Origin: Pedobacter polysacchareus
GTDB lineage: Bacteria > Bacteroidota > Bacteroidia > Sphingobacteriales > Sphingobacteriaceae
Direction: 5' to 3'
DNA length: 64,000 nucleotides
Assembly: GCF_019802255.1 (NCBI RefSeq)
Contig: NZ_JAHYSS010000007.1
Location: 248,001-312,000, forward strand
Positions within the stretch are counted from its first letter, which is position 1; each line of letters begins with the position of its first letter. Of this stretch, positions 7,464 to 13,436 are shown in pieces. Under the pieces are notes generated by a model. That model did not search any database and was not told the origin of the DNA. It was given only the letters and a program-made list of their open reading frames with translations. The position numbers and the translations under genes are program-made.

Positions 7464-7498
7464 TAAAAGCCTTTAGAGATCTCTTTAAAGGCTTTTTT
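7464..7498 (+). terminator. Terminator after tRNA-Arg
   Basis: The stem AAAAGCCTTTA/TAAAGGCTTTT surrounds a loop containing GAGATCTC and runs into a T tract, four bases after the tRNA end. Confidence 0.85.
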
Positions 7499-7694
7499 CG
7501 TTAAATAGGTTACAGCTTAGAAACTATAAAATAATATCTGCTGTTCCACAAGGAGAAATCCAGTTCTATAAATCTTTCATTTTCTAAAGGGCTGGAATGG
7601 CTGAACACGGATCATCCAGAAGCCCTTATAAAAATTCTTCTGGTTTATATTAGAAGCAGGCGCACCCGCTGAATAGGCTGTTGTGCCTGGGGTG

Positions 7695-8102
7695 TTATTT
7701 GTTCAAACTCAACAACCAGTCGTTTCCATATTTATCCCTTACAGTGCCAAACAACACCCCCCAGAAATTCAATTCCAAAGGATGGCTATTTTGTCCTCCT
7801 TCGGAAAGTTTCTGGTAACATGCCTTGATGTCTTCCTCTTTATCAAAATTAAGAAGAATAGAGAGGGAATTACCTTTAATTAACTGCTCATTATCCATTA
7901 GATCAGTTGCCGTTAAAACCAACCTTTCGCTGATCAAATTGGCTTGCAGGATACAGTCTTTTATTTTCTGAGGAAACTCCTTCGATGATGGAGCATCAGC
8001 AATACTTTGAAAATTAAGTATTCCACCAAAACAACCTTGATAAAAGGTCATTGCTTCACGGCAATTGCCGTTAAAAGTGAAGTAAGGGCTTATGGTTATC
8101 AT
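7695..8102 (-). CDS. VOC family (PhnB/3-demethylubiquinone-methyltransferase-like) protein
   Basis: 135 residues with the two beta-alpha-beta-beta-beta halves of the glyoxalase/bleomycin-resistance fold. The start ISPYFTFNGNCREAMTFYQGCFGG and the end FGTVRDKYGNDWLLSL are typical of the PhnB-like branch. These are small dimeric cytoplasmic proteins whose substrates are mostly unknown, and despite the name they are not shown to make ubiquinone. No membrane segment is present. It is divergent from a GlxA-type regulator (8287) across a 184-bp gap, so that regulator may control it; this is inference from position only. Confidence 0.88.
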   Translation of the reverse strand: MITISPYFTFNGNCREAMTFYQGCFGGILNFQSIADAPSSKEFPQKIKDCILQANLISERLVLTATDLMDNEQLIKGNSLSILLNFDKEEDIKACYQKLSEGGQNSHPLELNFWGVLFGTVRDKYGNDWLLSLNK

Positions 8103-8229
8103 GATTATTTAATATAGAAATCGCCAACAGGTTTAGTAATAAATGATGCTCAAATTTAACAAGCAGATTCACCAAACATCTTGTGCAAAAACGACAATTA
8201 AGGGGGTTGTATGCGACAATAAAACCTGA

Positions 8230-8237
8230 TATATTTG
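8230..8237 (+). promoter_or_regulatory. Promoter of the GlxA-family regulator gene
   Basis: The -7 element TATATTTG fits TAnnTTTG. A GTTG sequence ends at 8209, 20 bases upstream, in place of the -33 TTTG. The leader would be about 45 nt. Confidence 0.5.
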
Positions 8238-8286
8238 ATATAGAAACCAAAGTATTGAGGAGAAGACTTAGCAACGAAAAAAATCA

Positions 8287-9267
8287 ATGAAACACATTTC
8301 AATCTTAGTTCCCGAAACCGCAGTGATTGAATCCATTGCTGACCCCGGTTATTTGTTCAGAATGGTCAATGAATTTCTGGAATCTTCGGGAAAGCCAGCT
8401 TTATTCAAAGTGCAGCTGGTTGGTTTATCAAAAGAAGTCAGGCTGAACAACAGTTTATTTTCTGTACATCCTGATCAGGTGATATCTGAGGTAAAGCAAA
8501 CAGATTTGATTTTCATTCCTGCATTGAGTGGTTCATTAAAGACCGCTTTAAGTTTAAACAAAGATTTCTTGCCATGGATTGTGGAGCACTATCATAAAGG
8601 AGCAGAAGTTGCATCTTTATGCATCGGGGCATTTTTATTAGCCGCTACGGGATTGCTGAAAGGAAAACAATGTTCTACCCATTGGCTTCATGCGAATGAG
8701 TTCAGGGAAATGTTTCCAGAGGTCACCTTGGTAGATGGCAGCATTATTACTGAAGAACAAAGGCTTTATTCCAGCGGTGGGGCCAATTCTTACTGGAATC
8801 TACTTTTGTATCTCGTAGAGAAATATACGGACAGGGATACGGCCATCCTCGCCTCTAAGTTTTTCGCGATAGACATTGACAGGGAAAGTCAGTCTGCATT
8901 CATGATGTTCCAGGGCCAGAAAGATCACGAAGACCCAGAAATAAGGAAGGTGCAGGAATTTATAGAAAGTAATTATCAGGATAAAATCACAGTAGACCAG
9001 CTCGCTGAGATGTCCGCTCTGGGAAGAAGAAGTTTCGAACGAAGATTTAGCAAAGCAACAAATAATACCGTAGTCACTTATATCCAAAGAGTGAAAATTG
9101 AAGCTGCAAAGAGAAGTTTTGAAAGCAGCAGAAAAAACATCACAGAGGTGATGTATGACGTTGGTTATACAGATACTAAAGCCTTTCGAGATGTGTTTAA
9201 GAAAATCACAGGTTTAACACCTATAGAATACAGAAACAAATACAACAAACAAGTTGCTATTTCTTAA
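8287..9267 (+). CDS. GlxA/FtrA-type transcriptional regulator (DJ-1/PfpI domain plus AraC HTH)
   Basis: 326 residues. Residues ~1-185 form a DJ-1/PfpI-like amidotransferase fold with the nucleophile-elbow sequence SLCIGAFLLAATGLLKGKQCSTHW (elbow Cys in SLCIGA, then THW), used here for sensing rather than catalysis. Residues ~215-320 are an AraC/XylS DNA-binding domain with two helix-turn-helix units (QLAEMSALGRRSFERRFSKA, then ITEVMYDVGYTDTKAFRDVF) and the closing GLTPIEYRNKY. It probably regulates its own promoter and/or the divergent VOC gene. The effector is unknown. A terminator lies at 9271-9305. Confidence 0.92.
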   Translation: MKHISILVPETAVIESIADPGYLFRMVNEFLESSGKPALFKVQLVGLSKEVRLNNSLFSVHPDQVISEVKQTDLIFIPALSGSLKTALSLNKDFLPWIVEHYHKGAEVASLCIGAFLLAATGLLKGKQCSTHWLHANEFREMFPEVTLVDGSIITEEQRLYSSGGANSYWNLLLYLVEKYTDRDTAILASKFFAIDIDRESQSAFMMFQGQKDHEDPEIRKVQEFIESNYQDKITVDQLAEMSALGRRSFERRFSKATNNTVVTYIQRVKIEAAKRSFESSRKNITEVMYDVGYTDTKAFRDVFKKITGLTPIEYRNKYNKQVAIS

Positions 9268-10519: not shown

Positions 10520-11683
10520 TTAGTGTCCTAAAATACTTTTCATACTGGCTTCAGTATATCCTGCGCTCGCAGTCATCCCTTTGCCACCGATGCAGGTGCG
10601 AATGTGAATACAATCTTCGATATTATATTCCAAAATACGCGCTGTTGGATGCTGAGGGTAATAACCGGCCCAGGTAGTTCCCATATCACGAAGGTTGAAG
10701 TTCACAATGCGCTCCCCTTCTTTCAACATCAGTTCGTTAATGTGTTGTTTCACATTAAAACCAAGGTCATCAAAATGAGCAACATCAGCATATTCATGAG
10801 AATCACCGATGATAAAACTACCATCTACTGCCTTTTTAAAGAGTAAATGAATCCCCCATTCTTTCAATTCCTTATAATGATCAGGAGTTGTCAGCTGTTT
10901 AAACGAAGGACAGTACTCTTCAAAGCTTTCATACCTTCTGATGGTCAGTCCTGTTAAAATATTTCCTTCCAAAGCAACTTCTGGCATAGGCACTGTACGC
11001 ATCATCTGAAGTTTACTGATCACCTGTCCACTGGAAGCAAATAATTCCGGAAACAGTAATTTGAACTCATAACCATTACAAAGAACCGCTTTATCGGCCT
11101 GATAAGTACGATTACCAGACACCCGTACCTCGACACCATTTCCAGTAGGTGTACAATCTATCACTGGCGAATTACACAGCAAAGTATAACCTTCAAATTT
11201 CGCCTGCATAAATTCCTGCAGACGGTAAATCATCAACGCTGGTTCTACACTCAGTTCCTGCTTAAAAAATAGCGCTTCTTTCGCATAAGTATCCCTGATT
11301 GCCGGATATTTAGCCAAGACCTCTGCCTTTCCTAACAATTCCTGCTGATAACCTAGGGTATCATAATGCGCTTTCAATTCATGGATCAGGTTTTGCTCTT
11401 CGTCATCAGAAGCAATATAAACGCTTCCATTATTGCGGACAGAAATATCAAACTGCTGCTGTATTTCCTGATAGATTTCCAATCCGCGGACGCCATAATC
11501 AAACCAAACACCTGACATTCCAGATGGTACTACCTGTCCGAAGTTACGTACCGTTGAACCTACCGGATAGTTATCTTTTTCCAGCTGCAGAACCTTTTTC
11601 CCTAGTTTTAGTGCATGATAAGCGTGAAAAGTCCCTAAAATCCCTCCTCCAATTACAATCAGGTCATAATGCTTTGTATTCAT
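10520..11683 (-). CDS. FAD-dependent oxidoreductase, TIGR03364-type (aminophosphonate-associated)
   Basis: A 387-residue DAO-family flavoprotein with the N-terminal Rossmann motif IGGGILG at ~11-17 and a dinucleotide-binding Glu at EKD. The C-terminal part IHIRTCIGGKGMTASAGY contacts FAD. The overall pattern fits the TIGR03364 clade, which is known for genomic association with phosphonatase-like HAD hydrolases (TIGR03351) and is thought to oxidatively deaminate an aminophosphonate related to 2-aminoethylphosphonate. Here it is the last gene of a leftward operon behind a DUF5690 transporter (28-bp gap) and a decayed HAD hydrolase, so the pathway is probably no longer complete at this locus. 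The substrate is inference from family and context. Confidence 0.87.
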   Translation of the reverse strand: MNTKHYDLIVIGGGILGTFHAYHALKLGKKVLQLEKDNYPVGSTVRNFGQVVPSGMSGVWFDYGVRGLEIYQEIQQQFDISVRNNGSVYIASDDEEQNLIHELKAHYDTLGYQQELLGKAEVLAKYPAIRDTYAKEALFFKQELSVEPALMIYRLQEFMQAKFEGYTLLCNSPVIDCTPTGNGVEVRVSGNRTYQADKAVLCNGYEFKLLFPELFASSGQVISKLQMMRTVPMPEVALEGNILTGLTIRRYESFEEYCPSFKQLTTPDHYKELKEWGIHLLFKKAVDGSFIIGDSHEYADVAHFDDLGFNVKQHINELMLKEGERIVNFNLRDMGTTWAGYYPQHPTARILEYNIEDCIHIRTCIGGKGMTASAGYTEASMKSILGH

Positions 11684-11711: not shown

Positions 11712-13049
11712 TTATTTTGTACCTCTCTCTACATCTAATACCAATGCAGGGAGAGTAATATTACTTTCTTTTTTTTTATTCTTTACGCTTTTCTGGTGAA
11801 AATAAAGCAAGGAAACCATACTACAGGTTACGCCTACTACTGCTGCTACAACAGTACTTTGTCGGAAGAAATGGCCCCAGCTAATTTGGGCATCTCCAAA
11901 TTCTTTGAAGAGTAAAATACTCACACTTCCCAGGTATCCGATCGCATCCGAAACATACATGACAAAGCCAATATTACTTTTATAATTAAAAGTGGCAATC
12001 ATGCGTTCAAAAAACATGGCATTATAAGGAATGTAGGCCATATAAAGTCCCATTCCTACCATACACATCCAGACCACCGGACTGATATAATGTGCATCAA
12101 AAAGCAAGGTTGCAATTCCGGTAAGCGCACAGCCCCCGATGATCATCCAGTGAATCACTACAAAAGCTTTCAGGTTGTTCCGCACCAGGATCAACAAGCC
12201 TATCATGGATAATACGATTAAGGCAATAAAACCATCTATTTTCGCATAGATATGGTTATCAGTTACGCCCAGGTCATGCCAGATCTCCACTTCAAAATTA
12301 TCACGAAGGTCTCGTATGACGGTTAACATCACATAAATGATGACGGTTAAAACCACTCCTGGCAGGAAATTAAGCAGAAATTTCTTCCGCTGACGACCAT
12401 TCATTGGCAAACGTTTGGTTCTTAAACGCTGGTCTTCTTCTGTTGGTGGCGGAACCAATTCCAATAATCCCACAAAGAGAAGCAGAGGAATAACAAATAA
12501 TAATCCGGTGCAGAAAGGCATCCAATATTCATTAACCGGAAGCAAATCCATAACTGTTCTTGCCACCGTTTTGATAAAACCAGAAGCAAATATTAAACTT
12601 ACCGACATTACTGCCCCCATGAATTCCGTATTCCTTCTTCCCTCGAGATAGCTAAAAACCAGGCCCCAGATCATCCCTAATGGGAAACCATTGATAAAAA
12701 GAAAAGCAATATTCCATGGGGCAGGGATGATTGCGAAACCCAGCAATGCGACCCAGGAGATTCCGATCAGCTTTACAATACTGCGTCCTCTATTTTTCCC
12801 AGTAGATTCCGAGATAAAACGAATCCCATAAAATTTACTAAAAGTATACCCCATTACCTGGGCAATCACTAGCCAGACTTTATAATCAACTCCAAAATAT
12901 TCGTGTCCATCAAAAGTTCCCGCAGTAAAAGCCTTTCTAAAAGCATACATGCTGGTGTAACAGCCGAAAGCCGCTAAACCCGCCATTATAGAGATATAAA
13001 GGTATGGCCAACCAGCAACCTTATCCCGACAGTGTTTTAGGAGGTTCAT
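11712..13049 (-). CDS. DUF5690 family transporter (MFS-like, 12 membrane segments)
   Basis: 445 residues with about twelve predicted membrane helices, beginning YLYISIMAGLAAFGCYTSMYAFRKAF, which resembles organophosphate:phosphate antiporter starts (YxMYxFRKxF). The central loop after helix 6 is charged (PPPTEEDQRLRTKRL). The DUF5690 label fits from memory. In this operon it lies between a phosphonatase-like remnant and a TIGR03364 oxidase, so uptake of an organophosphonate is the most likely job, by inference only. It starts 6 bp after the remnant's stop codon, so the original operon spacing has been kept. Confidence 0.85.
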   Translation of the reverse strand: MNLLKHCRDKVAGWPYLYISIMAGLAAFGCYTSMYAFRKAFTAGTFDGHEYFGVDYKVWLVIAQVMGYTFSKFYGIRFISESTGKNRGRSIVKLIGISWVALLGFAIIPAPWNIAFLFINGFPLGMIWGLVFSYLEGRRNTEFMGAVMSVSLIFASGFIKTVARTVMDLLPVNEYWMPFCTGLLFVIPLLLFVGLLELVPPPTEEDQRLRTKRLPMNGRQRKKFLLNFLPGVVLTVIIYVMLTVIRDLRDNFEVEIWHDLGVTDNHIYAKIDGFIALIVLSMIGLLILVRNNLKAFVVIHWMIIGGCALTGIATLLFDAHYISPVVWMCMVGMGLYMAYIPYNAMFFERMIATFNYKSNIGFVMYVSDAIGYLGSVSILLFKEFGDAQISWGHFFRQSTVVAAVVGVTCSMVSLLYFHQKSVKNKKKESNITLPALVLDVERGTK

Positions 13050-13055
13050 ACGGCT

Positions 13056-13223
13056 TTATTGGTTGATCATTAATAATTCGGAAATATCATCGATCAGCTG
13101 TGTAGGATGATATCCCATTTGCAGATCACCCCTAACTTTCGCCTGCTGAAAGGCCAAGCCCGGGTCATTATTATCTTTTATAGTGGTTCCCGTCCTATCG
13201 ACTACTATTAATTTCACTGACAT
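13056..13223 (-). pseudogene. Remnant of a phosphonatase-like HAD hydrolase (TIGR03351-type), internal deletion
   Basis: A 55-codon frame still opens with ATG and closes with TAA just before the DUF5690 gene. Residues 1-19 (MSVKLIVVDRTGTTIKDNN) match the N-terminus of phosphonatase-like hydrolases, normally VFDMAGTT or similar, including the first catalytic Asp (residue 9). The last ~20 residues (YHPTQLIDDISELL) resemble the family C-terminus, where the Rossmann core ends before a terminal helix. About 170 residues between, including the cap domain and later catalytic motifs, are absent. The conserved Ala of the first motif is Thr here. It cannot be an active HAD enzyme. Its place as first gene before DUF5690 and TIGR03364 is where an intact hydrolase is expected. 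Confidence 0.72.
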
Positions 13224-13246
13224 CATTGAACATTTATATGTTCTGC

Positions 13247-13284
13247 AATACTAAACTTTGTGTATTAATACTAAACAAAGTTTA
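13247..13284. promoter_or_regulatory. Candidate operator: direct and inverted repeats upstream of the aminophosphonate operon
   Basis: AATACTAAAC occurs at 13247-13256 and again at 13267-13276, exactly 20 bp apart. A perfect 9-bp inverted repeat, TAAACTTTG (13252-13260) and CAAAGTTTA (13276-13284), brackets a TATTAATA core. On the minus strand it includes TTTG and TAGTATTG sequences resembling -33/-7 elements, ~25 bp before the remnant start codon. It could equally control tspO on the other side. Confidence 0.5.
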
Positions 13285-13436
13285 AGTTAAGGAATTGTTA
13301 GATTTCAATTACCTTCGCCTACGGAAGTTGAATCCATTAGATTTGCGCTTATTACTTTGAAAAATCTATGATTTTTAGGAGTCTGAAGCCTGGATCATGG
13401 TCCCTACTCCTATCTTTAACATTCAATTCATAAAAG

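Follow-up and report, generated by a model that had tools for sequence, protein, structure and literature searches.

The DNA analysed here (the window) is a stretch of 64,000 nucleotides from a Pedobacter genome of 5.83 Mb (G000:C17:248001-312000). On its minus strand lies an operon that consists of a short open reading frame (ORF; 13056..13226), a gene for a DUF5690 protein (11712..13049) and a gene for a TIGR03364 FAD-dependent oxidase (10520..11683). The short ORF has 56 codons when read from its outer ATG and 55 when read from an inner ATG at 13223. A candidate 19-bp promoter/operator box, ACACAAAGTTTAGTATTGC (13245..13263, minus strand), precedes the inner start codon by 21 nt and is common to an unlinked phosphonatase-like gene, the paralogue described below. 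Upstream of the box, the sequence contains a tandem TAAC-type repeat, CTAACAATTCCTTAACTT (13284..13301, minus strand), that is Pho-box-like by eye only; similar TAAC-type stretches occur upstream of the operon and of the paralogue in relatives.

A first-pass annotation, made from the sequence alone, had read the 55-codon frame as a phosphonatase-like HAD hydrolase gene with an in-frame internal deletion, and had traced both of its ends to TIGR03351. No significant family match of the ORF itself was found: the 56-residue ORF gave no Pfam or NCBIfam match at E<=1 and is thereby under the curated cut-off of TIGR03351, and a structure-sequence search of the peptide returned two designed proteins and nothing else. 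Since the direct match is not significant, the homology of the ORF rests on synteny, which overrides the missing match and bears out the deletion reading. In six relatives (G081, G160, G153, G122, G064 and G159), an intact HAD gene of ~225 residues lies at the same locus, between a divergent tspO gene and the DUF5690 gene, in the order HAD-DUF5690-TIGR03364 oxidase. These alleles score 188.7-205.0 bits on TIGR03351, below the 218.9-bit cut-off; searched as a protein, the G081 HAD scored 205.6 bits with TIGR03351 as its best family. In tblastn searches of small databases built from fetched loci, identity to the intact genes was 46-68% over the N-terminal 28-33 residues of the remnant (E 9e-5 to 2e-9) and 50-75% over its C-terminal 16-21 residues (E 0.07 to 7e-5). 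The window allele aligns with the intact alleles over the promoter, the start, ~30 N-terminal codons and the last ~17 codons. The 6-bp spacing to the DUF5690 gene was also reported correctly, as a 6-nt spacer (13050..13055, minus strand) separates the stop codon of the ORF from the DUF5690 ATG, compared to 7 nt in the intact G081 allele.

In protein and DNA alignments, the large internal deletion has its junction (MGY | HPT) at approximately 13108..13120 on the minus strand. The 56-codon remnant of G114 has the same junction and comes from an independent assembly, so the deletion is not an assembly artefact. The 49-codon remnant of G128 has the same right edge, and G000, G114 and G128 form one supported clade. 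Because the right edge is common to all three, the large deletion is most simply placed before their split. The remnant of G142 also has 49 codons, but its edges differ from those in G000, pointing to an independent deletion; this remnant matches TIGR03351 at E 5.2e-8. At the level of sequence, these results establish that one large in-frame deletion and further smaller ones have reduced a TIGR03351-type HAD gene to this ORF. It is a remnant of such a gene and not a member of the family.

Downstream of the ORF, the DUF5690 gene (PF18943, E 9.6e-171) and the oxidase gene (340.1 bits, cut-off 285.1) are both intact in G000, as the first-pass annotation had stated, and the oxidase is by family of the PbfD type that acts on aminophosphonates. 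The DUF5690 protein is predicted to be an MFS-fold transporter: its structural model (pLDDT 86, pTM 0.84) has its best PDB matches to the glucose-6-phosphate transporter G6PT1/SLC37A4 (E 2.6e-7, TM 0.63-0.69), a predicted resemblance that would suit a role in taking up a phosphorus compound. Its nearest matches among named records are from Pedobacter sp. PLR (93%) and P. gandavensis (91%). In a comparison of G000 with G114, the oxidase has a dN of 0.011 and a dS of 0.254 (dN/dS 0.043), and the oxidase, tspO and both parts of DUF5690, which is frameshifted in G114, are all constrained (dN/dS 0.03-0.08). This constraint suggests that the operon is probably still used in G000. Relaxed selection on the oxidase and transporter, which had been raised as a prospect, was not seen in this comparison (dN/dS 0.04-0.08), though DUF5690 is broken in 5 of 59 loci, in G009 (L019), G080 (L148), G114 (L058), G128 (L055) and G149 (L150), each time by a frameshift or deletion that changes the frame. 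In G128, the first 69 DUF5690 codons are read out of frame into an oxidase fragment.

The first-pass annotation had further proposed that the step cleaving the C-P bond was either lost or moved elsewhere, and that a full-length paralogue might be present in the rest of the genome. Such a gene, L001, was found at G000:C13:373742-374404. Its TIGR03351 score is above the cut-off of 218.9 bits both in the genome search (220.1 bits) and as a protein (220.6 bits), and TIGR03351 is its best model. L001 contains the sequence FDMAGTT, matching the DxAGT motif that we take to be the nucleophile motif. It also has lysines at and beside the GLLK site of PhnX, in an uncertain stretch of the alignment; PhnX Lys53 is presumably the Schiff-base lysine of the cap domain. 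In G142, G081 and other genomes, the L001-type gene is the first of an operon that also encodes an alcohol dehydrogenase and an MFS-like transporter. The G142 dehydrogenase is TIGR03366-like (308.3 bits, cut-off 328.1) and its neighbour matches MFS_1. For the dehydrogenase found alongside this gene type in sister species, no close match exists in G000, the best being 28% identical.

L001 shares its promoter box with the operon. The box pattern, AMACAAAGTTTAGTWTTGC, was drawn from both the operon site and the L001 site, and its 0-mismatch sites in G000 lie only upstream of these two, a count that is descriptive because the pattern came from the same sites. With up to one mismatch there are five sites in G000, two of which lie inside genes and were taken as chance; the reversed pattern has two matches at up to two mismatches. 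In eight relatives, a near-identical pattern gave 15 sites at up to one mismatch compared to 0 for the reversed control. The operon of every one of the eight is among these sites, as are the paralogues of G114 and G142; the one-mismatch search detected no box at the G081 paralogue. By sequence comparison, then, the same rare promoter box precedes a full-length TIGR03351 gene elsewhere in the G000 genome.

A one-mismatch intergenic box in G000 precedes a TonB-receptor (SusC-like) gene on contig C13 (L156 9005-12142), with a neighbouring gene at 7486-9018. In G114, both a SusC-like gene and an adjoining gene that looks phosphatase-like by eye carry the box (L166, L169), and in G142 the boxed SusC-like gene (L168) adjoins ORFs resembling pstB and phoU by eye. 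The boxed SusC-like locus may be the arm of the regulon that serves uptake. Candidates for regulating the box are similar XRE-cupin-like helix-turn-helix genes (L017 3580-4155, L018 156-734, L098 841-1419, L101 2306-2887 and L121 2363-2932), which adjoin the operon in some species and the paralogue in others; for those of L017 and L098 the best model is PuuR, below its cut-off.

These observations bear on the fate of the C-P cleavage step. An operon without any hydrolase of its own could have lost this step and make a dead-end aldehyde, or could use a PhnY/PhnA route. We regard this as improbable: the genome holds a TIGR03351 gene that is full-length and carries the same promoter box, the oxidase and transporter are under purifying selection, and the best match to the PhnA model in G000 scored 33.2 bits against a cut-off of 407.55. 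Of the two fates proposed earlier, a move elsewhere is therefore favoured by L001, which is over the cut-off and has the same box, and outright loss is not. The step was probably lost from the operon and not from the genome. The unlinked L001 enzyme, whose activity is predicted, would hydrolyse the phosphonoacetaldehyde made by the operon oxidase, and once it did so the operon copy of the HAD gene would have become redundant.

To place the remnant in its genus, 145 genomes were searched, of which 58 have a window-type DUF5690 gene, at 59 loci. DUF5690 matches below 57% identity and secondary fragments were left out, except for an 84% fragment in G128 that was kept, as were L001 matches below 48% identity outside the operon, a third type present in G013, G019, G023, G024, G068, G092 and G154. 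Among the 58 genomes, 24 have the operon HAD only, 29 have only an L001-type gene elsewhere, two have both and three have neither. An L001-type gene elsewhere is hence present in 29/32 genomes without the operon HAD compared to 2/26 with it (Fisher p 7e-11, ignoring the tree). Of the genomes with neither gene, DUF5690 is broken in G080 and G128, and G154 carries another HAD, 37% identical. The operon-HAD state changes ~10 times, giving 7 independent pairs on well supported branches. Sign tests on the tree gave median p values of 0.219, 0.0625, 0.125 and 0.031 in four versions, with or without G080 and G128 and with or without the third type of G154. The tree-corrected link between loss of the HAD and the second gene is borderline and suggestive only.

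The HAD gene itself was lost in more than one way. Among the 33 loci whose operon has no HAD, a HAD start can still be recognised at 24 but not at the other nine (G014, G023, two in G025, G066, G071, G080, G096 and G146). On the DUF5690 tree, the remnant label has to change 6 times, and well supported branches force at least 5 of these changes; by this reconstruction the gene was gutted several times across the genus. In at least three lineages (G014, G023, G071 and perhaps G146) it was removed cleanly, so that DUF5690 directly follows the promoter; a leader is hence not required. A four-gene order of PF01663-type phosphodiesterase, HAD, DUF5690 and oxidase is present at L132 (G133), L135 (G166) and L048 (G108), and in many relatives the HAD alone is missing from it.

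We next consider what the remnants, or stubs, have retained. The HAD frame is open in 24/24, from the homologous start to a stop that lies between a 4-nt overlap and 7 nt before the DUF5690 ATG. The 24 remnants do not represent 24 independent events. The +1 frame is open likewise in 0/24 and the +2 frame in 6/24, all six within a group of seven whose stub spans 55 nt. Shuffles of random sequence gave P 0.002-0.22 each for the frame test, and such shuffles do not model neutral decay from an open frame. Where the ATG was lost (G031 and G118), another in-frame ATG is present, and the G149 stub starts with TTG. The amino acid sequence behaves differently: G000 and G114 differ by 13 nonsynonymous and 2 synonymous changes in the remnant (dN 0.105, dS 0.058, dN/dS 1.8), and over 8 pairs the pooled pN/pS is 1.02 (79.5 nonsynonymous, 19.5 synonymous changes), with a nonsynonymous share of 0.80, the value expected under neutrality. 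The flanking DUF5690 has a pN/pS of 0.03-0.115 in the 6 computable of the 7 other pairs. At the level of codons and alignments, the stubs thus keep the HAD start position, the frame and a stop at the DUF5690 start, and their amino acid sequence drifts neutrally.

An ORF kept at the same place in many species could encode a functional small protein, such as a regulator or partner of the transporter. Such a protein would be expected to be under purifying selection, and the substitution patterns above show none; the stubs moreover range from 15 to 55 codons and have dissimilar C-termini. A conserved small protein was rejected on these grounds, and we hold any functional peptide to be very improbable.

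Neutral amino acid evolution would equally be seen if the stub were a leftover without a role, its frame kept by chance and by the short evolutionary time. Consistent with such decay, the stub frame persists in G128 although the operon is broken, and in G114 although DUF5690 is frameshifted; some operons deleted the HAD cleanly, and the changes and independent pairs counted above amount to few truly independent lineages. Decay does not readily explain why only the HAD frame is open in all 24 remnants, or why stubs of such different lengths are all in frame when the untranslated stretch from the box to the first-ORF start (~20 nt) varies by single bases, from 17 to 22 nt. Stop codons are also fewer than expected, with 0 in 99 substitutions compared to 3.8 expected (P 0.020) and, over five clades, one compared to 5.7 expected (P ~0.02). 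That one, in G135, lies two codons early and is still 7 nt from DUF5690. In addition, all five broken DUF5690 genes among the 59 loci have breaks that change the frame. We give plain decay a minor but real chance of being right.

The open frame in 24/24 remnants together with neutral amino acid drift fits selection on a translated leader into DUF5690 and not on the peptide, making the window ORF, on the basis of the ORF call, the syntenic intact alleles, neutral amino acid evolution and the frame test, a candidate leader ORF. The first-pass annotation had offered translation coupling to the transporter as an alternative to a lost or moved step; coupling fits the data best and is compatible with a step that moved elsewhere. 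The start of the first ORF is predicted to be accessible, with a median opening energy of 3.2 kcal/mol in 16 intact loci and 2.9 kcal/mol in 24 remnant loci, compared to 6.9 and 7.5 kcal/mol, respectively, for the less accessible DUF5690 start. In G000 the DUF5690 start is itself predicted to be accessible (2.9 kcal/mol), so coupling need not be strong there. Ribosomes would load at the accessible HAD start just past the promoter and translate the stub; termination next to the DUF5690 ATG would then allow them to reinitiate at that codon, and selection would keep the frame of the stub and its stop position but not the peptide. PMC10666635 reports that coupling in E. coli and Haloferax, neither of them Bacteroidota, collapses by a gap of ~20 nt, and that for two E. 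coli pairs the last 15 nt of the upstream gene are enough. According to PMC6728339, Shine-Dalgarno motifs seem not to be used in Bacteroidetes. We infer that coupling is the most likely reason why the stub frame survives. The combined reading, in which the HAD gene is a remnant, its step moved to the co-boxed paralogue and the stub was kept for coupling into DUF5690, is in our judgement likely to be correct as a whole.

Similar stubs are present outside Pedobacter. Of 153 named loci found, 80 were kept, and among these 13 non-Pedobacter loci, 12 of them from Mucilaginibacter, are without a full HAD. In five (L197, L203, L215, L221 and L243), a HAD-like start is present and the stop falls within a range from a 10-nt overlap with DUF5690 to 2 nt ahead of it, two (L218 and L247) have very short ORFs ahead of DUF5690, two (L193 and L254) have an open frame without an ATG, and no such stub ORF was found ahead of DUF5690 in L201, L213, L222 and L232. 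Judged from these loci, Mucilaginibacter has similar stubs, in a looser pattern than in Pedobacter. In several lineages of both genera, then, the first gene of an operon, which encoded an enzyme, may repeatedly have been turned into a translated, sequence-free leader whose sole selected properties are its frame and stop position, a generalisation for which we see the chances as evenly balanced. If true, this would be a way in which nature repeatedly makes coupling elements out of genes whose enzymatic role has passed to a co-regulated paralogue. The loci would be a natural replicated experiment on the value of translating an upstream gene, in which the protein was lost several times and the frame was kept, and would make the need for termination-reinitiation in Bacteroidota, seemingly without Shine-Dalgarno use, directly testable. 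They also warn that short ORFs without sequence conservation can be under selection, and that an operon without its catalytic gene need not be without the step.

The pathway and the coupling are of known kinds, and the repeated reduction of an enzyme gene to a leader that keeps only its frame is apparently undescribed. A literature search on remnants or in-frame deletions with coupling found no such case, the text of a review on coupling (PMC12548453) contains neither 'remnant' nor 'pseudogene', and the literature searched has no mention of DUF5690 or TIGR03351, though TIGR03364 does occur in it. Among TIGR03351 PhnX-like hydrolases (NCBIfam), the G081 operon HAD and L001 match the model best, and the window ORF, which is without nearly all of the domain, does not match it. 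The closest known pathway is the PbfD2-PhnX aminophosphonate pathway (Zangelmi et al. 2023, PMC10590968). That paper describes an FAD oxidase as in the operon, with PbfD1 annotated as TIGR03364; the PbfD-type oxidase makes phosphonoacetaldehyde from AEP or N-methyl-AEP, and PhnX hydrolyses it. G000 is likewise without a PhnW, as nothing scored over the cut-off of that model. In contrast, the predicted G000 hydrolase is of the TIGR03351 type and unlinked from the oxidase, the putative transporter is a DUF5690 protein, and the activities in Pedobacter are predicted. Compared to termination-reinitiation coupling as outlined in PMC6728339, PMC10666635 and PMC12548453, the stubs are alike in their gap of -4 to +7 nt to the downstream start, in the short upstream stretch that would suffice and in that no Shine-Dalgarno motif is expected in Bacteroidetes. 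They differ from the known coupled pairs in that the upstream ORF of the putative coupling would be a gutted enzyme gene, free of amino acid constraint, that has arisen repeatedly.
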